A stretch of DNA of 64,000 nt from Prochlorococcus marinus str. MIT 9107 (GTDB lineage Bacteria; Cyanobacteriota; Cyanobacteriia; PCC-6307; Cyanobiaceae), in assembly GCF_000759855.1 (NCBI RefSeq), contig NZ_JNAI01000007.1:1-64000 (forward strand), in the 5' to 3' direction. Shown here one piece after another: positions 5,014 to 27,860 of the stretch (the stretch's first letter is position 1; every line of letters begins with the position of its first letter). Under the pieces are notes generated by a model. That model was not told the DNA's origin and ran no database searches. It saw nothing but the letters and a program-made list of their open reading frames with translations. The translations under genes were made by a program, and so were the position numbers.

Positions 5014-5031
5014 GATTTGATATTTTTTTAG

Positions 5032-5075
5032 GAAAGTTGATCTAAAATTAGAGGGATAAAACCCTCTTTTTTTTT
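5032..5075 (+). promoter_or_regulatory. Repeated leader with terminator hairpin abutting the start codon
   Basis: A diverged GTCGATCTAAAATTAGAGGG leader: the hairpin GAGGG-ATAAAA-CCCTC and a T-tract run into ATG at 5076. It belongs to the family at 9381, 9946, 14172, 17616, 17956, 22354 and 22700. No ribosome site fits between hairpin and ATG. Confidence 0.7.
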
Positions 5076-5201
5076 ATGTCCTCTTCAATGAAAGATTTCT
5101 TAGATAAATTTTTTGATTTATGTAGAGAATATCAAGAAGAAATCTCACCTCAAAAGATGGCAGAAATTTTAAGGGATTACGCTGATAGATTAGATGGTTG
5201 A
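5076..5201 (+). CDS. 41-aa repeated cargo protein, copy 1
   Basis: Encodes MSSSMKDFLDKFFDLCREYQ and continues to ILRDYADRLDG. Two near-identical copies are at 9426-9551 and 22743-22868, each directly behind the same leader. It is predicted to be two amphipathic helices, with many acidic and aromatic residues and one cysteine. Only Ser replaces Pro in the EEISPQK stretch here. Family and function are unknown. Conservation of the reading frame between copies argues that it is translated. Confidence 0.75.
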   Translation: MSSSMKDFLDKFFDLCREYQEEISPQKMAEILRDYADRLDG

Positions 5202-7847: not shown

Positions 7848-8963
7848 CTATTTACTGGTTGCTCTATTTGTGAATGTTCCTGTCGATCTTTCAAGTAAAA
7901 TATCATAATTACGTTTGACTGGTTGAGTCATTTGAGTGATCATATTTTTCTTATAATTTGATCTCTCAAATTTGACTGGCTTACCGGTAATATTCATTCT
8001 TAAACCAAAAAAAGTTTCATCTGTTCCTGGCAGAGAGGTGTTTAATGTAGTAGAAGTAGCAGAAATTTCATTAGATAAATAAGCTTCAAAACTGACGTGC
8101 GGAGTAGCTTGCCAACTCACTGATCCTTCTAATCCGGAATTATCTTGAGTATGTTTATAGTCCCAATTAAAACCTCTTACAAAGAAAGCAAGTTCTGGAT
8201 TATTTGGCAATCTGTAACCTAGTTCCACATCCCATCCTGGTACTACTCTTTCTTTATATGATGTACCTTTTATAGTTACATCCTTTTCATCTGTTATTGA
8301 CATATACCAGTTATTTCTAAATTCAAAATCTTTCCAGAAATATTCTCCACCTAATCCAAGTCTGCTGTGTGCATCGCTATAATCAGTCATTCTGTAATCC
8401 CAGAACGCATTAGCTCCAACCATAGATACATTGTTAGGGCGATTTCTAATTCCTAAACCAAGATTAATGGTGGAACCATCTGCATTAGTTGCAGTAGCGA
8501 ATCTTGCCTGAGAAAATGCCAGAGTTTTTAAATCGCCTTCTTCATCTGTTGCAAGTTCGCCAAGTTTCATCAAACTATTGATTGAGAAGCTTGTATCTGA
8601 TTCTGTTCCGCTAGAAATATTTACGGAAGTCTGAGCAAGAAATGGGATTTTTTGTATCTCACCATTTGCTTTTGCATTCGTAAAATTAAATCCAGCATCA
8701 ACTAATAATCTATTAAGATCATTCGCCATGATGCTCGTATATTCATTTCCTTGCGCACCATTATTCATTAAAGGAACAAACTTAGTTGAATAGGTTGCTC
8801 CTTTAATTATATATTCATCTAATTTGTCTTTTGGCTCGTATATATCTTGCTTAATTTTAACTTGATCAAATTTGATATCTTCAAATTTGTATTCATTAGC
8901 TGATACAGAAAGAATTGATCCAGAAGCAAGTGTAGTTAAAGATAAAGCTTTAAATAATTTCAC
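7848..8963 (-). CDS. Inverse-autotransporter-like beta-barrel outer-membrane protein
   Basis: A 371-residue protein with a signal peptide (LSLTTLASGSILSVSANE). The middle reads LGLGIRNRPNNVSMVGANAF, WDYRMTDYSDAHSRLGLGGE, YFWKDFEFRNNWY, then PGWDVELGYRLPNNPELAFF and NGxxL-type strands. This is the pattern of the intimin/invasin inverse-autotransporter barrel. In intimins an extracellular passenger follows the barrel; here only about 40 residues follow, so the protein is barrel-only. The neighbouring secreted protein may be its surface partner (inference). Confidence 0.65.
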   Translation of the reverse strand: MKLFKALSLTTLASGSILSVSANEYKFEDIKFDQVKIKQDIYEPKDKLDEYIIKGATYSTKFVPLMNNGAQGNEYTSIMANDLNRLLVDAGFNFTNAKANGEIQKIPFLAQTSVNISSGTESDTSFSINSLMKLGELATDEEGDLKTLAFSQARFATATNADGSTINLGLGIRNRPNNVSMVGANAFWDYRMTDYSDAHSRLGLGGEYFWKDFEFRNNWYMSITDEKDVTIKGTSYKERVVPGWDVELGYRLPNNPELAFFVRGFNWDYKHTQDNSGLEGSVSWQATPHVSFEAYLSNEISATSTTLNTSLPGTDETFFGLRMNITGKPVKFERSNYKKNMITQMTQPVKRNYDILLERSTGTFTNRATSK

Positions 8964-9380: not shown

Positions 9381-9425
9381 ATTGACAGTCGATCTAAAAT
9401 TAGAGGGATTAAACCCTCTTTTTAT
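9381..9425 (+). promoter_or_regulatory. Repeated ATTGACAGTCGATCTA leader with hairpin
   Basis: The ATTGACAGTCGATCTAAAAT box is followed by hairpin AGAGGG-ATTAAA-CCCTCT and a T-tract reaching the ATG at 9426. It acts either as terminator or attenuator, or as a structural recombination site. Gene-proximal copy for the 41-aa protein. Confidence 0.75.
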
Positions 9426-9551
9426 ATGTCTTCTTCAATAAAAGATTTCTTAGATAAATTTTTTGATTTATGTAGAGAATATCAAGAAGAAATCCCACCT
9501 CAAAAGATGGCAGAAATTTTAAGGGATTACGCTGATAGATTAGATGGATAA
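9426..9551 (+). CDS. 41-aa repeated cargo protein, copy 2
   Basis: Near-identical to 5076-5201 and 22743-22868 (MSSSIKDFLDKFFDLCREYQ; Ile replaces Met at position 5, and EEIPPQK is restored). The frame can be extended upstream to 9330, but that part is the leader hairpin. The other two copies share only the stretch from this ATG, which fixes the start. Function unknown. Confidence 0.75.
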   Translation: MSSSIKDFLDKFFDLCREYQEEIPPQKMAEILRDYADRLDG

Positions 9552-9945: not shown

Positions 9946-9989
9946 ATTGACAGTCGATCTAAACTGAAGGGATAAAACCCTCTTTTTTA
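9946..9989 (+). promoter_or_regulatory. Repeated ATTGACAGTCGATCTA leader with hairpin
   Basis: ATTGACAGTCGATCTAAACT, hairpin AGGG-ATAAAA-CCCT, T-tract, then ATG at 9990 of a lipoprotein gene. The second leader within 600 bp. Confidence 0.75.
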
Positions 9990-10157
9990 ATGAAAAGATT
10001 ACTGCTTGTACCTTTAATCTTATTACTTTTGACTAGTTGTCAAAGCAAAAAAGATATCTGCGCTTCATGGGTAGGGGGTGTAATTAGTTATCGAGAGGCT
10101 CAGGAAAAACTAGATGTCCAAAGCCCTGGCGGTTATTGTCAGGATTACAAAGACTGA
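9990..10157 (+). CDS. Small lipoprotein
   Basis: A 55-residue protein with a lipoprotein signal (MKRLLLVPLILLLLTSC, lipobox LTSC, Cys17). The mature part is short with two more cysteines (KDICASW and GGYCQDYKD). Probably membrane-tethered in the periplasm. Its first codons match the signal peptide of the nuclease that follows 7 bp after it, so the signal sequence appears duplicated. Function unknown. Confidence 0.65.
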   Translation: MKRLLLVPLILLLLTSCQSKKDICASWVGGVISYREAQEKLDVQSPGGYCQDYKD

Positions 10158-10164
10158 ACAAGAA

Positions 10165-10560
10165 ATGAAACGCTTACTACTCCCACTACTAGCTGCTCTC
10201 GCTTTACCTGCGTCTGAATTAGCATTCGCATCATTTCCAATTGTTTTTATAAAAGACTGCTATGACGGAGATACTTGTACTACTTTAAAGGCCGAAAAGA
10301 TAAGACTGGCTTGTATAGATACTCCAGAGTTAAAAGGTTGGAAGGCGGATCCTATTCCAGCTAAAGAAGCGAGAGATTTTGTGAATAAATTAGTGGCTAA
10401 TGAGAAAGTTTCTATTAAAAGAATCACTAAAGATAAATATGGAAGAACTGTTGGTGAATTATTTAAAAACGGAGTTAATATTCAAGAACTTATCGTTGAA
10501 AAAGGATATGGGAAGATATATAAGAAATACGCCTATCAATGTGAATGGAGCAAGAAATAA
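10165..10560 (+). CDS. Secreted thermonuclease (staphylococcal nuclease family)
   Basis: A 131-residue protein: signal peptide (LLPLLAALALPASELAFA) followed by an SNase domain. Recognised signatures are DCYDGDTCTTL (metal-binding Asp), IRLACIDTPEL (catalytic Arg and Glu) and KDKYGRTVGELF (catalytic Arg). It degrades DNA or RNA outside the cytoplasm and could serve nutrient scavenging. The frame is open from 10114, but ATG at 10165 gives the normal signal peptide and fits the short gap after the lipoprotein, so it is preferred. The next gene begins 10 bp downstream. Confidence 0.85.
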   Translation: MKRLLLPLLAALALPASELAFASFPIVFIKDCYDGDTCTTLKAEKIRLACIDTPELKGWKADPIPAKEARDFVNKLVANEKVSIKRITKDKYGRTVGELFKNGVNIQELIVEKGYGKIYKKYAYQCEWSKK

Positions 10561-11151: not shown

Positions 11152-11169
11152 TCGCCCGTTTGTCGCCCG
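11152..11169. repeat. TCGCCCG pair, 11-bp period
   Basis: TCGCCCG at 11152 and 11163, the same as 9322-9339. It is followed by the palindromic tRNA-core copy at 11178-11198. Confidence 0.75.
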
Positions 11170-11177
11170 CCTGCGAC

Positions 11178-11198
11178 CTAGTGCTCTATGAGCACTAG
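11178..11198. repeat. Perfect palindrome CTAGTGCTC-TAT-GAGCACTAG
   Basis: Nine-base arms with a 3-base centre. The left part, CTGCGACCTAGTGCTC, equals the tRNA-Pro sequence, so one tRNA half-site was mirrored here. It may be a recombinase core site or a relic of one. Confidence 0.7.
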
Positions 11199-11222
11199 AT
11201 CATAGAATTTATAAATTTATTA

Positions 11223-11280
11223 ATTGACAGTCGATCTACAATAAGGAGCAAATGCCCCTTATTTTAGATCGAGTGTCAAT
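11223..11280. repeat. Full-length palindromic form of the repeated leader
   Basis: ATTGACAGTCGATCTA at the left is answered by TAGATCGAGTGTCAAT at the right, with an inner stem AAGG.GC/GC.CCTT. The 58-bp imperfect palindrome would fold into one long hairpin. All other leader copies keep only the left arm plus the inner hairpin. No gene starts directly behind it. Confidence 0.8.
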
Positions 11281-11355
11281 CATGTAAACAAAAAGAAATC
11301 AGCATAACTACGCATATACAACATAAATTAGATTGACTAATATTTTATTAATCGA

Positions 11356-11412
11356 ATGGAGGAATCGGAAATGATTGATAGTCCACCAGTGAATTCAATA
11401 AGATTGGCTTAA
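11356..11412 (+). CDS. Possible 18-aa peptide
   Basis: ATG at 11356 with an upstream purine-poor region; product MEESEMIDSPPVNSIRLA. It is followed by a clear terminator at 11453-11494, so a short transcript is plausible, but coding is unproven. Confidence 0.2.
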   Translation: MEESEMIDSPPVNSIRLA

Positions 11413-11452
11413 AAAACCAAGTTCCACACAACTTACTAATTATTACTAAAAG

Positions 11453-11494
11453 AAAGAGATTGTTTCCTAATGGCTGGAGTGCAATCTCTTTTAT
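11453..11494 (+). terminator. Intrinsic terminator
   Basis: AAAGAGATTG and CAATCTCTTT form the stem, followed by TTATT. It is nearly symmetrical and could serve both strands; the minus-strand gene at 11570-12064 ends 80 bp to the right and would read towards it. Confidence 0.6.
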
Positions 11495-11569
11495 TATGAA
11501 ATTAATTTATCTAGATAATCTTTTATATATTCTTTTCCAAAGAAAGTAAAAAAAAATAAAATGTATTGA

Positions 11570-12064
11570 TTACTTATTAATAAATGAAAATCGACCTAAA
11601 AAAGAGGGAATAAAACTTTCTTCCTTTTTATTTTCTTTTGTTTTTTCATTTAATTGAATTACATTATTTTTGGCAGAATCATTATTATTAAGTGCTAATT
11701 CAAAATTATTAAATATATTAATTTTTAGGCATTCCTTGAATAATTCCTTACATAAAGAAATAAAGGATAAACAAGTAATTCCTATTATTTTAAAGAGATT
11801 TAGAAATTGAATAAAAGCAGACATCAATGACTTAAATATTTCAGATACATTTTTTAAAAATGTTCCAAAAAGTTCATATATTTGAATGAAGCTTTTAAAA
11901 AGAACATCAATAAGAGTAATTATATTTCTAAAGATTAAAGTAAAATCATTAAACAATTTACTTAAAAGTACATTAATTGAATTCTCATTATCTTTGGTAA
12001 ATATTTTTACAATGCCAATCCAAATAAGAAATGAAGTTAGAAGAGTAATTAAGACTTTAATCAT
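11570..12064 (-). CDS. Hydrophobic hypothetical protein
   Basis: A 164-residue protein with an N-terminal membrane helix (LITLLTSFLIWIGIVKIF) and several later amphipathic or hydrophobic helices rich in Phe, Ile and Leu (IQIYELFGTFLKNVSEIF, IIGITCLSFISL). A polar tail follows (KTKENKKEES). It may be a membrane-associated helical protein. Overlapping + strand frames are shorter and look like shadows. No family recognised. Confidence 0.5.
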   Translation of the reverse strand: MIKVLITLLTSFLIWIGIVKIFTKDNENSINVLLSKLFNDFTLIFRNIITLIDVLFKSFIQIYELFGTFLKNVSEIFKSLMSAFIQFLNLFKIIGITCLSFISLCKELFKECLKINIFNNFELALNNNDSAKNNVIQLNEKTKENKKEESFIPSFLGRFSFINK

Positions 12065-14171: not shown

Positions 14172-14214
14172 ATTGACAGTCGATCTAACATAGAGGGATA
14201 AAACCCTCTTTTTT
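14172..14214 (+). promoter_or_regulatory. Repeated leader, now heading a 6-codon frame
   Basis: ATTGACAGTCGATCTAACAT, hairpin GAGGG-ATAAAA-CCCTC, T-tract, then ATG at 14215, but the frame stops after MQVIRV. The former cargo gene has been lost. The next real gene is pstS at 14364. Confidence 0.7.
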
Positions 14215-14363
14215 ATGCAAGTAATAAGAGTTTAAAACGAGCGACCAGGTTGTATATATCAATAGTTTTTGATTATATCAAAATATTTTGATGTATTTCT
14301 TAATCTTTGTATTTCGCTTTTTGTTTGATGCTATAAATGAATTGTCTTTAATCTAAGTCGCTA

Positions 14364-15335
14364 ATGAGTATTTTTAAAAAAACTCTCATTTTATCTTCTG
14401 CAATTTCATTAATACTTTCTCCATCTGCGATGGCTTCAAAAAGATTGAGTGGAGCTGGTGCATCATTTCCTTCGAAGATTTATACCAGGTGGTTTTTTGA
14501 CTTGGCTAAATCTGGAGGCCCTAGAGTTAATTATCAAGCAGTAGGTTCTGGATCTGGAAGAAAAGCTTTCATAGACGAAACTGTGAATTTTGGAGCATCA
14601 GATGATCCAATGAAAGATTCTGATATAGAGAAAGTTAAAAGAGGACTTGTTCAAATACCTATGGTAGGTGGCACTATTGCCTTTGGATATAACTACGATT
14701 GCGATTTAAAACTTACTCAAGAGCAAGCAGTACGTGTCGCTATGGGTATGGTTAAAAACTGGAAAGAATTAGGTTGTAAATCAGGTAAGTTAACTTGGGC
14801 ACATCGTTCTGATGGCTCAGGCACGACTAAAGCTTTTACAAATTCTATGGAGGCTTTCTCTAAAACTTGGAATTTAGGTACTGGTAAATCTGTTAAATGG
14901 CCTTCGGGAGTTGGTGCTAAAGGTAATTCTGGTGTTGCAGGTGTTATTCAAAATACTCCAGGTGCAATTGGTTATGTAAATCAGTCATACATTAAAGGTA
15001 ATGTTAAGGCTGCTGCACTTCAAAATCTTTCTGGTGAATTCGTTACCCCCAATACTGAATCAGGTTCAATAGCTTTAAATGGAATAAAGCTTGATAAGAA
15101 CTTGGCCGGTAAAAATCCAAACCCCACTGTTAAAGGAGCTTATCCAATAGCAACCTTAACTTGGGTACTTGCTTATGAAAAAGGTAATGGCAGGAATACT
15201 AAGGCAATTCAAGATACATTCTATAAATTACTCAGTGATGAATACCAAGATAAAGCGCCTGCCTTGGGTTTCGTTCCCTTGAAAGGAGAAATTTTAAAAA
15301 AATCAATTGAGGCTGTTGGAAGAATAGGAAGGTAA
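14364..15335 (+). CDS. pstS: Phosphate ABC transporter substrate-binding protein
   Basis: A 323-residue protein with a signal peptide (LSSAISLILSPSAMA). The PstS core reads LSGAGASFPSKIYTRWF, VNYQAVGSGSGRKAF and FGASDDPM, then RSDGSGTTKAFT, the phosphate-binding SGT segment, and GNSGVAGVIQNTPGAIGYV. It binds phosphate in the periplasm for the Pst importer; pstCAB are not in the window. It is intact, unlike its neighbours gap and arsR. Together they resemble the phosphorus/arsenic gene block seen in Prochlorococcus islands. It probably responds to phosphate limitation, but no Pho box is claimed here. Confidence 0.93.
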   Translation: MSIFKKTLILSSAISLILSPSAMASKRLSGAGASFPSKIYTRWFFDLAKSGGPRVNYQAVGSGSGRKAFIDETVNFGASDDPMKDSDIEKVKRGLVQIPMVGGTIAFGYNYDCDLKLTQEQAVRVAMGMVKNWKELGCKSGKLTWAHRSDGSGTTKAFTNSMEAFSKTWNLGTGKSVKWPSGVGAKGNSGVAGVIQNTPGAIGYVNQSYIKGNVKAAALQNLSGEFVTPNTESGSIALNGIKLDKNLAGKNPNPTVKGAYPIATLTWVLAYEKGNGRNTKAIQDTFYKLLSDEYQDKAPALGFVPLKGEILKKSIEAVGRIGR

Positions 15336-16699: not shown

Positions 16700-16721
16700 A
16701 TTGACAGTCTATCTAAAATAA
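16700..16721 (+). promoter_or_regulatory. Partial repeated leader
   Basis: ATTGACAGTCTATCTAAAAT survives, followed by AAGGGGCAATTAATAAA, where the hairpin's right arm and T-tract are lost. It runs into the coding fragment at 16722. Confidence 0.55.
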
Positions 16722-16901
16722 GGGGCAATTAATAAATTAGTTAATGGAGTACACAGAGGAACAACTAAATTTATTAAAAAAAAGAAACCAGAATTTAATT
16801 TAAAACCAGTTCCTTTATTAGATGTTGTTGTTGAATTTCTAAAAAAATATGAAGTATATCTTGAAAACTTAATTGAATATTTTGCCATTAAGTTTTTTTA
16901 G
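16722..16901 (+). pseudogene. Gene fragment fused to a leader, no start codon
   Basis: An open frame of 59 codons after a TAA inside the leader reads INKLVNGVHRGTTKFIKKKK and KPVPLLDVVVEFLKKYEVYL, ending at TAG 16899-16901. There is no standard start. A competing ATG at 16744 gives only 19 codons. It seems to be the 3' part of an unknown gene joined to the leader. Confidence 0.4.
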
Positions 16902-17615: not shown

Positions 17616-17661
17616 ATTGACAGTCGATCTAAAATTGGAGGGATAAAAAACCTCTTTTTTT
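17616..17661 (+). promoter_or_regulatory. Repeated leader facing a convergent gene
   Basis: ATTGACAGTCGATCTAAAAT, hairpin GAGG-GATAAAAAA-CCTC, T-tract. The ATG behind it (17663) gives only a frame antisense to the DUF3721 gene. Here the hairpin may act as terminator for whatever reads in from the left, or the cargo was inverted. Confidence 0.65.
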
Positions 17662-17890
17662 AATGGTTATGTTTGTGCATACTGCATGGCATCCATTTAT
17701 CACCCATTTGATGAGCGCCTTCACAAGCAAATTTATAGGCCTCTTTTTCTGCCTCTTCTTTCGTATTAAATAACATTGGCATTTTCATTTCTTTTTCTAC
17801 TGGTTTATTTGAACATCCGAATATAGGAATTGATATCAAAAGAAAAGTAATAAGAGAAATAATGTGTTTCAAAATTAATTTATAAATCAA
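17660..17890 (-). CDS. DUF3721-type lipoprotein
   Basis: A 76-residue protein: signal peptide with lipobox-like IPIFGC, then MLFNTKEEAEKEAYKFACEG and AHQMGDKWMPCSMHKHNH. The TKEEAE...GCxGAHxMGDxWMPCxMH pattern is that of DUF3721, a small cyanobacterial family. The conserved Cys, Met and His residues suggest metal binding (inference). A TTG eight codons inside could also be the start. Confidence 0.75.
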   Translation of the reverse strand: MIYKLILKHIISLITFLLISIPIFGCSNKPVEKEMKMPMLFNTKEEAEKEAYKFACEGAHQMGDKWMPCSMHKHNH

Positions 17891-17955: not shown

Positions 17956-17999
17956 ATTGAAAGTCGATCTACAATAAGGAGCAATTAGCTCCTTTTTTT
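17956..17999 (+). promoter_or_regulatory. Repeated leader, AAGGAGC hairpin type
   Basis: ATTGAAAGTCGATCTACAAT followed by AAGGAGC-AATTA-GCTCCTT and a T-tract, then ATG at 18000. It shares the AAGGAGC stem with 22354 and 11223, in place of the GAGGG stem. Confidence 0.75.
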
Positions 18000-18395
18000 A
18001 TGAAGTTAAAAAATATTTTAAAAACTATTGGAGCGCTTCATATCCTTTGGGGATTGTTAATTATTTTTCTACTCATTTTTTCAGTGGAAACTATTGCAGG
18101 TGATGCTTCAAGTGAAACATTGCTTCTTGTAAGAGGTACTTCAGATGTAGTAGCAGCTAGTAATTTGGGAATTGGTTGTTTATTGATTATTTGTAGTTCT
18201 ATAAAAGATAAAGTCTCTTTAAGAAAAGTTTTATCTGGTGAATTAGCTTTGATGTTTTGTTTTTTAGCAGTAGCTATATTCAATTCTTTTAATGCTGGAA
18301 CAATTGTCGATGGTGGACCTCCTCCTCCTTTTTGGTTTGTTTTGATAGTTAATCCTCTTTTATCTATTTACGGATTAAATAAAGACAACAGATGA
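18000..18395 (+). CDS. Four-helix membrane protein, unknown
   Basis: A 131-residue protein with hydrophobic segments at about residues 8-30, 50-68, 80-97 and 108-124 (for example ALHILWGLLIIFLLIFSV and FWFVLIVNPLLSIYGL) and a GGPPPPFW loop. Starts right behind the leader hairpin. No family is recognised with certainty; it looks like the small DoxX/DUF4345-style membrane proteins. The following ATG (18392) opens an 18-codon signal-like frame, MNQFLLSLLAVFAF, a probable remnant. Confidence 0.6.
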   Translation: MKLKNILKTIGALHILWGLLIIFLLIFSVETIAGDASSETLLLVRGTSDVVAASNLGIGCLLIICSSIKDKVSLRKVLSGELALMFCFLAVAIFNSFNAGTIVDGGPPPPFWFVLIVNPLLSIYGLNKDNR

Positions 18396-20525: not shown

Positions 20526-21581
20526 TTAGTTTCTACTAAGTCTTTTAATTATTGGACAATAAATATCAGCTGCCATAACAGCTGTTGGATCATTTCCTAT
20601 TTTCATCCAACCTTTCATAGCTCCTCCTGCATAATTAACTCGATCCCCTTTCCTGTCAAAGGTAAGGTCAACACAGTCAAGTGTGTATTTATAAAAACGT
20701 TTATCAACCCCATCTGGAATTACTATTTCATCTGTTCCCTCTTCTCCATAGCAAGATCCTCCAGATGACCAACTACCACTTCCATAATCTCGATCATAAT
20801 AGGCACTTCCGCTTCCACCCCAATCACAATCTATATATCCTGGTTTCGCAGGAATATAATCACCCGTAAAAGGATTATTAGTTTTTCCAAAAAATGTAAG
20901 ATATCTCCCGTACTTATTACGGATCATTTTCTGTTTTACAGATGAATCATCGAGAGCATAATCCCAAGTATTATCTCTGTTATGAAAAACACCTAATAAA
21001 AACTCTGGATCATAGTATCTATATCCCGCATTTTTAAAAGTGTACATTTCTTTAATGGCGCAGGAGCTACCAATTTTTTTATTATCTGAATTGAACCAAG
21101 ATAAACTTTTTGAATAATTTTTTCCATAACAATCACAATAGTTAGAGATATTTCTAGGTGAATAGAATTTCTTTTTTACTAAATTGTCATTTGATACTAG
21201 AAAAGCATGGTAATTAGTAAGGAAGCAAGTTTTTTTGAAATCGGAGAAAACGTTATATTTTTTATCTACAGCAAGTATTGATTCGCAGGCTAAATTGTAG
21301 CTCTCATCATTTAGTTCTCCTAGTCTTTGGGTATAGATATTGAAGTTGCTTTCATTTTCTCTTATTTGTTTAAGGTCTCTTATGCAGCTGCTTAATTTAT
21401 TTGGTTTGAAAATATTAAAGATATTTTTTTTATTTTTATCGTCCATCTTACTTAGCGCGTTAACACATCCTTGATAATCTTGAGCTTTGAGGCACTTTTC
21501 GTGAATGGACTCGGCTCTAGAATGGCCAATAAATAAGGTGTTTAAAAGGATTACTGAAAATAAGAAAAACTTTCCTTTCAT
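20526..21581 (-). CDS. Exported Cys- and aromatic-rich protein
   Basis: A 351-residue protein with a signal peptide (FLFSVILLNTLFIGHSRAES). The mature N-terminal part has HEKCLKAQDYQGCVNALSKM, a motif of secreted picocyanobacterial proteins. The later part is rich in Gly, Ser and Tyr with paired cysteines (CDWGGSGSAYYDRDYGSG), and the end reads VDLTFDRKGDRVNYAGGAMK. It is the only gene of its module. Periplasmic or surface role; no domain recognised. Confidence 0.65.
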   Translation of the reverse strand: MKGKFFLFSVILLNTLFIGHSRAESIHEKCLKAQDYQGCVNALSKMDDKNKKNIFNIFKPNKLSSCIRDLKQIRENESNFNIYTQRLGELNDESYNLACESILAVDKKYNVFSDFKKTCFLTNYHAFLVSNDNLVKKKFYSPRNISNYCDCYGKNYSKSLSWFNSDNKKIGSSCAIKEMYTFKNAGYRYYDPEFLLGVFHNRDNTWDYALDDSSVKQKMIRNKYGRYLTFFGKTNNPFTGDYIPAKPGYIDCDWGGSGSAYYDRDYGSGSWSSGGSCYGEEGTDEIVIPDGVDKRFYKYTLDCVDLTFDRKGDRVNYAGGAMKGWMKIGNDPTAVMAADIYCPIIKRLSRN

Positions 21582-22353: not shown

Positions 22354-22397
22354 ATTGACAGTCGATCTAAAATAAGGAGCAATTAGCTCCTTTTTTT
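22354..22397 (+). promoter_or_regulatory. Repeated leader, AAGGAGC hairpin type
   Basis: ATTGACAGTCGATCTAAAAT, AAGGAGC-AATTA-GCTCCTT, T-tract, ATG at 22398. The hairpin begins right after the upstream gene, so it could also serve as that gene's terminator. Confidence 0.8.
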
Positions 22398-22661
22398 ATG
22401 AACACTCTCATCATTTCTACTTTTAGCTGTACATTTGAAGAATTTAAAAATGATGTAACGACATTATTTCTTGAAGAAATGTGCAAGGAGTTTGTAACTG
22501 ATTATGAGTTTGTAAAAGTCAACGAACACAAATCTCATTTATTAATGAACTGTACTGACTTAGAAAAATTAGGTGCAGAGATGGAATCTCCTTTCGCAAA
22601 GGAATGGGATAAAAAAAATAACTGTAAGGATACCGTATATTCGATCGAACTTTTCGCTTAA
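22398..22661 (+). CDS. 87-aa hypothetical protein
   Basis: Alpha/beta pattern with TLIISTFSCTFEEFKNDVTT, FLEEMCKEFVTDYEFVKVNE and SHLLMNCTDLEKLGAEM. The arrangement of strand, helix, strand, 'MNCTDLE', helix is like small ferredoxin-fold proteins (DUF3764/DUF1330-like), but no firm family can be given. It is followed by a stray signal-like frame MKRLLLVPLY (22661-22693). Confidence 0.6.
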   Translation: MNTLIISTFSCTFEEFKNDVTTLFLEEMCKEFVTDYEFVKVNEHKSHLLMNCTDLEKLGAEMESPFAKEWDKKNNCKDTVYSIELFA

Positions 22662-22699
22662 ATGAAACGCTTACTACTTGTACCGCTATATTAAATACG

Positions 22700-22742
22700 A
22701 TTGACAGTCGATCTAACATAGAGGGATAAACCCCTCTTTTTT
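22700..22742 (+). promoter_or_regulatory. Repeated leader with GAGGG hairpin
   Basis: ATTGACAGTCGATCTAACAT, hairpin GAGGG-ATAAAC-CCCTC, T-tract, ATG at 22743. Confidence 0.8.
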
Positions 22743-22868
22743 ATGTCCTCTTCAATGAAAGATTTCCTTGATAAATTTTTTGATTTATGTAGAGAATATC
22801 AAGAAGAAATTCCACCTCAAAAGATGGCAGAAATTTTAAGAGATTATGCTGATAGGCTAGATGGATAA
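22743..22868 (+). CDS. 41-aa repeated cargo protein, copy 3
   Basis: Same protein as 5076-5201 and 9426-9551 (MSSSMKDFLDKFFDLCREYQ; PPQK in the middle; ends YADRLDG). Synonymous differences from the other copies (for example aga/agg, gat/gac) suggest selection on the protein. It ends 12 bp before the DUF4268 gene. Confidence 0.75.
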   Translation: MSSSMKDFLDKFFDLCREYQEEIPPQKMAEILRDYADRLDG

Positions 22869-26490: not shown

Positions 26491-27561
26491 TCAATAGCCT
26501 GTAATCTGTCTATACTGAAGACCATTAATTGTTCTTTGCATAGTGGACCTTTGAATCGCATTCCCCATTTGTATAAGAGCATTTGAAATTTGAGCACCTC
26601 TAACTTGTTTCTTCAGTTTATTTAGATCTGTAATACCAGTTTTGATTTGAGCTATTTCAAGAGGTGTCAGGCACTCAAGAGTTATAGTTTTTGTTCTTCT
26701 TTTGCTTAACAAACCTCCACCAGTTTGAAACGTGTAGTTGTAGTTCTTTCTTCCGTCTGAGCATTCGCTACTTGTGCTTCCCTCAGAAATTGAAAAGTCG
26801 TTATTTTTTATTCGTTCTTCTTTAGCATCTTCTTTCTTTAAGGCTAACTTAAAATTATCTCTTCTTTTTAAATAATCATTAGATTCAGTTCTTAGTTTGG
26901 AAAGAAATTCTTGGTTATTTGTTTCCAAAGCTTTGAAGTATTTTTCGCCATACTTTTTCCCTAAAACTATCCCTAGATAATATTTATCCCCGAAACGTCT
27001 ATCACATCCCAACCACGATAGGGATTGAATATTACCTACCTTTAGAGCTTCATCACATGCTCTTTGCCTTCCTTCTTCTTTTGATAAATGATACGCATAA
27101 AAATGAAAATAAGAAGTAACATTCCATGCTTCTGAACAATAATTGGATAATGGGTAAATATTATGAGCATTTACAATATCTCTATAACCTTCTCTTTGAA
27201 TTTCAAGATTTGGATATTGCATTTTTGTCCAACCTCTTATAAAAGTAGCCTCAGATAATTCTTGATCACTAATATCTTTTTGACTAAGAATTTCCTTAAT
27301 TAATCTTTTAAGTTTCCTGAACTGCCTTCGGTCAGTTTCTGCTTTAACTCTTAAAGTCCTTAATTTATTAATTTGCTTGGAATCTTCTTTATAGGCTGGT
27401 TTTTCTATAAGACTACAAGTTATGTTTCCAGCTGGAGAGCTTTCAAATACTGGAGGAAATAGTTCCTCAGGATAATAAACCTTTGGATATCCATATTCTT
27501 TTGCTTTTAAATATTCATATGAAATAACAAAAGATAGTAAAAATATTAATATTTTTTTCAT
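26491..27561 (-). CDS. Exported helical protein
   Basis: A 356-residue protein with a signal peptide (KKILIFLLSFVISYEYLKAK). The mature part has helical repeats of a TPR/SEL1 type appearance (LSEATFIRGWTKMQYPNLEI, GYRDIVNAHNIYPLSNYCSE), then KRRDNFKLALKKEDAKEERI, probably coiled coil. The end is a Ser/Cys part and IQMGNAIQRSTMQRTINGLQ. Probably periplasmic. No domain is certain. Part of the newest-looking module together with the HtrA-like protease and the membrane protein. Confidence 0.6.
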   Translation of the reverse strand: MKKILIFLLSFVISYEYLKAKEYGYPKVYYPEELFPPVFESSPAGNITCSLIEKPAYKEDSKQINKLRTLRVKAETDRRQFRKLKRLIKEILSQKDISDQELSEATFIRGWTKMQYPNLEIQREGYRDIVNAHNIYPLSNYCSEAWNVTSYFHFYAYHLSKEEGRQRACDEALKVGNIQSLSWLGCDRRFGDKYYLGIVLGKKYGEKYFKALETNNQEFLSKLRTESNDYLKRRDNFKLALKKEDAKEERIKNNDFSISEGSTSSECSDGRKNYNYTFQTGGGLLSKRRTKTITLECLTPLEIAQIKTGITDLNKLKKQVRGAQISNALIQMGNAIQRSTMQRTINGLQYRQITGY

Positions 27562-27782: not shown

Positions 27783-27860
27783 ATGGTCGGGGCGACAGGA
27801 TTCGAACCTGCGACCTAGTGCTCCCAAAGCACCCGCGCTACCAAGCTGCGCCACGCCCCG
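27783..27860 (-). tRNA. trnP-UGG: tRNA-Pro(UGG), intact
   Basis: Read on the minus strand: acceptor CGGGGCG pairs with CGCCCCG, D stem GCGC/GCGC, anticodon stem GGTGC/GCACT with loop TTTGGGA (anticodon TGG), T stem GCAGG/CCTGT with TTCGAAT loop, discriminator A. CCA is encoded at 27783-27785, in contrast to all truncated copies, which have CTC there. It is the integration target of the island. Its 5' half and promoter are repeated in diverged form at 28974-29060. Confidence 0.97.

Follow-up and report, generated by a model that had tools for sequence, protein, structure and literature searches.

Lambdoid phages carry short conserved boundary or linker sequences between their modules; different genes are joined at these sequences, which are thought to recombine by short homology. 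Integron cassettes are single small genes, mostly of unknown function, that are exchanged at a repeated short hairpin site. In Cluster K mycobacteriophages, the 13-bp SAS lies immediately upstream of gene starts, and a role in translation initiation has been proposed for it (PMC3203893). The window analyzed in this work, a stretch of 64,000 nucleotides from a Prochlorococcus genome (1.70 Mb, 13 contigs, 100% complete), contains a short element that we call the leader. As far as SAS and ESAS are described in the consulted sections of PMC3203893, the leader is like them a short repeat, partly with inverted repeats, before the starts of many unrelated genes, mostly in one orientation and confined to one lineage. 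Unlike them, its core begins about 43 nt before the start codon and looks like a promoter or operator: the start is mostly found 40–46 nt from the first base of the core, and the repeat thus does not sit right before the start codon at the ribosome-binding position. Gene exchange at SAS is not reported in those sections. At one place in the window, two leader cores face each other in a palindrome (Table 1).

Table 1. Positions of the palindrome, its parts and neighbors, and of leaders and signal-peptide starts in the window
Feature	Position	Strand	Remark
58-bp imperfect palindrome	11223–11280	none	reads as a fusion of two convergent leaders through their hairpins
Left arm, leader core A	11223–11238	+	flank 11040–11222 matches relatives with a lone plus-strand leader
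Right arm, leader core B	11265–11280	-	flank through Yfr11 matches relatives with a lone minus-strand leader
Shared inner hairpin	11240–11263	none	left half GGAGC type (leader A), right half GGGGC type (leader B)
Yfr11 small RNA gene, right neighbor of the palindrome	11350–11495	+	RF02363, 89 bits, cut-off 44
tRNA-Pro fragment and inverted short fragment, left neighbor of the palindrome	11152–11198	-	relatives have similar fragments ahead of leaders
Degenerate leader (4 mismatches) before the third copy of the 41-aa ORF	5030–5078	+	different upstream flank
Leader before 41-aa ORF	9381–9428 (core 9382–9396)	+	core match
Leader before 55-aa ORF	9946–9992 (core 9947–9961)	+	core match
Leader upstream of PBP-like gene (14364–15335)	14172–14216	+	core match; no ORF of at least 25 aa directly behind
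Leader without obvious hairpin	16700–16746	+	core match; no ORF of at least 25 aa directly behind
Leader before 36-aa ORF	17616–17665 (core 17617–17631)	+	core match
Leader before 131-aa ORF (18000–18395)	17956–18002	+	core match
Leader before 87-aa ORF (22398–22661)	22354–22400	+	core match
Leader before a further 41-aa ORF, a near-identical copy of those at 9426 and 5076	22700–22745	+	
Signal-peptide coding starts (ATGAAACGCTTACTACT)	10165–10181, 22662–22678		also at many other loci

The palindrome and its two flanks

The initial annotation had described a 58-bp palindrome, and it was borne out at exactly the location given. Its 16-nt outer arms, ATTGACAGTCGATCTA and the mirrored TAGATCGAGTGTCAAT, differ by one mismatch and enclose an inner hairpin, in which the GGAGC and GGGGC halves leave mismatches in the stem. 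As single-stranded DNA, positions 11213–11290 fold at −19.7 kcal/mol; shuffled sequences averaged −4.1 (z = −8.8), and none of 200 was equally stable. Both arms count among the 10 copies of the core TTGACAGTCGATCTA found in the window with up to three mismatches, where 1.3 were expected. Genome-wide, the core occurs 17 times with up to two mismatches, and a reversed control 4 times.

Judged by its flanks, the palindrome is a chimera of two ordinary leaders, i.e., the junction between them. On the right, positions 11240–11600, comprising part of the hairpin, the right arm, the spacer and Yfr11, which begins 70 bases from the palindrome, align at 89.6% to a relative (L171) in which the right arm extends into a regular minus-strand leader (TTGACAGTCGATCTAAAATAAGGGGCAATTAGCTCCTTTTTTTTAATG) followed by an ORF. 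When 265 genus genomes were searched with the Yfr11 flank, 170 matched; 29 loci besides the window's own were fetched, and the best 12 (L331–L342) were read. Seven of these best 12 of 29 loci have a minus-strand leader at the flank, followed by an ORF in four (L331, L333, L337, L338; three kinds of ORF) and by no ORF that we found in three (L332, L334, L335). The other five (L336, L339–L342) have no leader. A second convergent core was present in none of the best 12 of 29. The palindrome itself, which lies outside the Rfam match to its right neighbor Yfr11 (RF02363; PMC2518516), was likewise seen at none of them. Two of the leaderless relatives, L340 and L342, have a reversed signal-peptide start near the flank, in L342 one base off.

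On the left, the flank with its tRNA-Pro fragment continues into a plus-strand core in six of the eight loci read. Different ORFs of 60–199 aa follow in L198, L122, L036 and L200 (the last with 3 mismatches in the core), a 19-aa frame in L139 and no ORF in L040; L184 and L124 have the flank without a core. The two arms of the palindrome differ at 3 of 28 positions, and every variant occurs in other leaders. The rarest, a C at position 6 in the right arm, is found in 5 of 329 leaders, one being the arm itself.

We hence favor, with a probability of about 80%, a reading in which two convergent leaders collapsed onto each other where their hairpins look alike, with loss of the intervening DNA, while the leader core more widely is a genus-wide breakpoint joint and the leader an expression module. 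Leaders A and B would once have faced each other with their genes in between. Because the hairpin itself is nearly palindromic, it reads as a direct repeat on one strand in two convergent leaders, and recombination of hairpin with hairpin would delete the intervening DNA to leave core A, a hairpin and an inverted core B. The arrangement observed is core A, a hairpin with one GGAGC-type and one GGGGC-type half, and inverted core B. The undeleted arrangement, both leaders convergent with genes between them, was found in no genome, and deletion, inversion and two-step joining are therefore not distinguishable; an inversion followed by later loss may be an alternative route.

Two other origins of the palindrome were weighed. 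The initial annotation had taken it for the intact ancestral recombination site, of which filled sites retain only the left half, and as in an empty site, no gene lies between the arms. However, single, non-palindromic leaders occupy the flanks of both arms in relatives, the arms differ from each other in the way existing leader variants do, and the crossover zone is the left core and not the center. Moreover, palindromic empty sites were not encountered in relatives, neither at the best 12 of the 29 Yfr11-flank loci nor anywhere beyond the one genome of 266. We regard an ancestral site as scarcely tenable. Replication template switches extend quasi-palindromes, and a switch at the hairpin might have copied the left arm back onto itself. 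Such an inverted self-duplication is very improbable, as a minus-strand leader is already found at the right flank in 7 of the best 12 loci and the right arm has variants of its own, the C at position 6 being shared with 4 other leaders of 329. The caveat that the right arm could be a chance inversion unique to this genome was justified as to uniqueness, but the arm appears to be made from a second leader.

The exact pattern TCGATCTA-N8-38-TAGATCGA occurred in 1 of 266 genus genomes, the source genome, so that the palindrome is known from one assembly. The pattern read backwards matched in 3 of 266; the short pattern alone is thus no rarer than chance, and the weight rests on both arms being leader cores. 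With the full left core and a laxer right arm, a search of 265 genomes returned the palindrome site and two genuine leaders, which matched since their gene happens to start ATGACAGATCGA. A second such palindrome, for which the initial annotation had proposed to search, was found neither with the exact pattern in the 266 genomes nor with the laxer one in the 265. Among 616 core hits with up to three mismatches in Prochlorococcus loci (overlapping loci and both strands counted, window duplicates left out), the sole adjacent convergent pair less than 150 nt apart is the palindrome, in two records of one place. The claim that every other copy lacks the right arm thus agrees with the core hits, in which no further convergent pair was adjacent within 150 nt; its second half, that a T-tract and a gene replace the arm, fails for 108 of 329 copies, which have no ORF of at least 30 aa starting 30–75 nt from the first core base. 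Viral contigs yielded 40 stretches matching the same pattern, which have nothing but the searched letters in common. The palindrome may be one scar of leader exchange; its main value lies in indicating that leaders recombine with one another.

The leader as a module

By its layout, the leader probably combines a promoter with a short 5′ leader that forms a hairpin. With up to one mismatch, the core motif is present in 264 of 266 genus genomes, and a reversed control pattern in 4. In a family survey of 151 evenly drawn genomes (completeness at least 85), the core plus TANNNT was found without mismatch in 10 of 11 genus members versus 1 of 140 other family members, there as a single copy. Across 329 distinct copies, the core is preceded by GA (G 58%, A 94%), and together they resemble a dyad, GATTGAC-A-GTCGATC, a likely regulator site. 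In the TANNNT box after the dyad, the T at +18 is present in 78 of 85 copies that were not selected for that base. Behind it follow a hairpin, a T-rich stretch and an ORF. Good hairpin stems were seen in 178 of 254 distinct segments versus 46 after shuffling, and the stems are formed by different sequences. An ORF of at least 30 aa starts 30–75 nt from the first core base in 221 of 329 copies, compared with 38 of 329 in a control scan; in 179 of 329, the distance is 40–46 nt, most commonly 43 nt.

The leader might hence work as a compact expression module made up of the dyad, TANNNT as a −10 box, the 5′ hairpin, a U-tract and, some 43 nt from where the core begins, the start codon; the U-tract might serve to recruit ribosomal protein S1. 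This would agree with S1-dependent initiation at pyrimidine tracts preceding the start, a topic treated for MED4 in PMC5607370.

Nine representative proteins encoded behind leaders were compared with Pfam; four match families of unknown function (DUF3764, DUF3804 and twice DUF3303) and five match none. One 41-aa ORF (MSSSMKDFLDKFFDLCREYQEE...) is present in the window in three near-identical copies, at 5076, 9426 and 22743, behind leaders with different upstream flanks, and again behind a leader in a genome inferred to be MED4, whose leaders include those at 347626, 358210, 359654, 1347088 and 1361463. About 5 kb from the PBP-like gene, the window also contains a 371-aa ORF (7848–8963, minus strand) that matches, unusually, an inverse autotransporter beta-domain (PF11924, E 1e-63). 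A viral origin of the leader was considered and rejected: the exact core was found in 33 IMG/VR stretches, but a leader-like hairpin follows in L051, L067 and L070 only, and in the remaining stretches unrelated sequence lies behind the core.

The leader core is a breakpoint hotspot

Flank comparisons showed that breakpoints concentrate at the leader core, where upstream flanks appear to have been recombined with downstream sequences across the genus. For the 329 leaders, whose pairs are not independent because genomes are related and whose loci were fetched mostly for carrying a leader, 424 of 597 pairs sharing the upstream flank had no downstream DNA similarity (410 also none at the protein level), and 550 of 726 pairs sharing the downstream sequence had no upstream similarity. 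The same test on 1816 other ORF starts in these loci gave 38/1786 for flank-sharing and 437/2327 for downstream-sharing pairs, the latter kind being raised at ordinary ORF starts too (0.19 to 0.25). At the level of clusters, 46 of 52 multi-member upstream clusters join at least two downstream clusters, 44 of 52 once clusters with similar proteins are merged, and 41 of 48 do so in the reverse direction. In three genomes, identity is 97–98% up to the core and the DNA behind it is different; two of the three genes start with similar protein words, and there was no tblastx match.

Diverged homologues are rejected as the cause: of the 424 pairs without DNA similarity, 229 carry an ORF on both sides, and 215 of these 229 encode dissimilar proteins. 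In 175 pairs only one member has an ORF and in 20 neither, so not every case is an exchange of gene for gene. Leaders that are merely copied promoters would predict a shared gene behind a shared flank, and this was mostly not seen.

Repeated words in general do not behave in this way. Of 168 other 13-mers that recur in the islands, 150 were counted, with 723/5596 and 173/5213, and none of 117 assessable words exceeded 0.5 on both sides, although these overlap each other and thus represent fewer than 117 independent words. Leader words reached 27–29/31 and 21/24–25. Single-cell whole-genome amplification makes chimeras at short repeats, and many of our loci come from single-cell assemblies, so that the shuffling might be an artefact of amplification or of assembly chimeras. 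Yet the other assessable words lack the pattern, and it is unchanged in near-closed assemblies, a subset chosen by contiguity and completeness in which amplification chimeras are less of a risk, with 47/67 and 45/67 for leaders (102 leaders, 15 genomes) and 27/793 and 286/1122 for other ORF starts (18 genomes). An artefact is therefore most improbable.

Where the exchange takes place can be narrowed down from the pairs. In those sharing a flank, identity is high until the core and at about random level just past it; in those sharing a gene, it climbs at about −3 and across the core, with the hairpin partly following the gene. The identity switch falls inside the 15–18 bp core. Its variable positions tend to agree with the flank toward the left end and with the gene toward the right end, with scatter and no sharp switch. 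The proposal that genes had been joined at the leader was thus sound in that downstream sequences are joined and exchanged there far above the level of other ORF starts. It misplaced the joint at the center or right arm: the joint is the left core, and the hairpin tends to be carried along with the gene. Nothing points to single-strand or integron-type recombination, which had been invoked as the model.

The pattern fits an exchange anywhere in the shared stretch of 15–18 bp, longer if the hairpins match, and neither proves nor excludes a dedicated enzyme. For leaders with a common hairpin type, the joint may reach about 45 bp. Genes would be exchanged by short-homology recombination in the core, and selection would retain working joints. 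A stretch of 15–18 bp is short for RecA-type recombination. Alternatively, the core might be the recognition site of a dedicated recombinase, and leader plus gene a true mobile cassette with its promoter inside. Crossovers that map to a core containing a dyad, the genus-wide conservation of this core and the free combination of upstream and downstream parts would be in agreement with such an enzyme. However, an unrelated signal-peptide start behaves alike, which favors short homology as a general cause, the crossovers show no fixed nucleotide, and no recombinase was recognized among the 21 window ORFs scanned with Pfam. We hence consider a dedicated recombinase rather unlikely. Also unlikely is a dedicated recombination system of Prochlorococcus's own, in which core, hairpin and gene form a promoter-bearing mobile cassette, the mirror image of an integron, and the palindrome results from the excision of two cassettes that face each other.

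The leader is not unique, since the signal-peptide start (ATGAAACGCTTACTACT, MKRLLL) behaves alike and is a second breakpoint hotspot (233/278 and 76/123 in the flank test); the tRNA-Pro fragment gave 271/305 and 67/93. When 530 repeated 11-mers were ranked by the frequency of alignment ends, words of the tRNA-Pro anticodon region and of the signal-peptide start came out on top, together with A/T-rich words and one further complex word, TGGCTAATGAA. Leader-core words reached only about the 90th–95th percentile in this ranking, which is not unbiased because the stretches were partly chosen for holding leaders. For TGGCTAATGAA, the hazard for alignment ends was 0.63 over 27 copies in the island stretches. 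At 22662, a fragment of a signal-peptide start is cut off directly before a leader. Leader and signal-peptide start are both functional words, a probable promoter and an export signal, which suggests that short homology acts together with selection for joints that work.

The tRNA joint falls sharply at the anticodon loop, where an integrase would be expected to place it. Between 3.1 and 27.9 kb of the window, the tRNA-Pro repeat is present in 10 to 12 copies, including an intact gene (27784–27860, minus strand), and this looks like a series of integration scars. Inverted tRNA-Pro fragments, CTAGTGC-(T/C)CTATGA-GCACTAG, lie at 11178–11198 (with TCTATGA) and at about 21931, as well as in L139, L036, L198 and L200; their 7-bp arms around 7 bp have the geometry of an anticodon stem-loop and also of a tyrosine-recombinase core site. 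Two ORFs of 351–356 aa beside tRNA-Pro copies (20526–21581 and 26491–27561, both minus strand) were considered as recombinase candidates; their starts resemble those of secreted proteins. Neither Pfam nor PHROGs gave a convincing match for either, and solved structures gave none for the first.

If a promoter-hairpin module of about 45 bp doubles as a joint, this would explain how a newly arrived small gene could be expressed immediately. This bears on how single genes come and go in the islands of the ocean's most abundant phototroph other than through the tRNA-targeted elements known so far. Island breakpoints would be predictable to within about 15 bp, which makes the process testable.

Relation to known exchange systems

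The literature searched, which lacked the original tycheposon paper, had no match for the 15-mer core alongside "Prochlorococcus", and we found no description of the leader motif or of gene exchange at the leader there. Like integron cassettes, leader units are small genes exchanged at a short repeated hairpin site. Unlike in integron cassettes, the joint is upstream of the gene and not downstream, and each unit has its own putative promoter. Integron genes have their recombination site at the 3′ end and are promoterless; at leaders, identity switches in the core upstream of the gene, and the conserved TANNNT box and regular start spacing might reflect a promoter. With the joint on the wrong side of the gene, a leader unit is not an integron cassette. 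An integrase (IntI) was not found among the 21 window ORFs scanned with Pfam.

The window shares more with the tycheposons and tRNA-bounded islands of Prochlorococcus as covered in the consulted part of PMC10872708, being itself a tRNA-bounded island with repeated tRNA-Pro fragments that resemble integration sites. The 10 to 12 tRNA-Pro copies joined at the anticodon loop correspond to the scars of that system. A tyrosine recombinase was not detected among the same 21 ORFs with Pfam, and remnants may have lost theirs. Tycheposons integrate at a tRNA site, whereas the leader joint lies within the cargo and is a separate breakpoint, additional to that site. As short conserved joints between different genes, leaders are like the linkers of lambdoid phages; unlike these, they are found in chromosomal islands of cyanobacteria and look like a promoter-hairpin module. 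By this comparison, the leader resembles the phage linkers, and SAS in its layout, and appears to sit in a tRNA-bounded island of the tycheposon kind.
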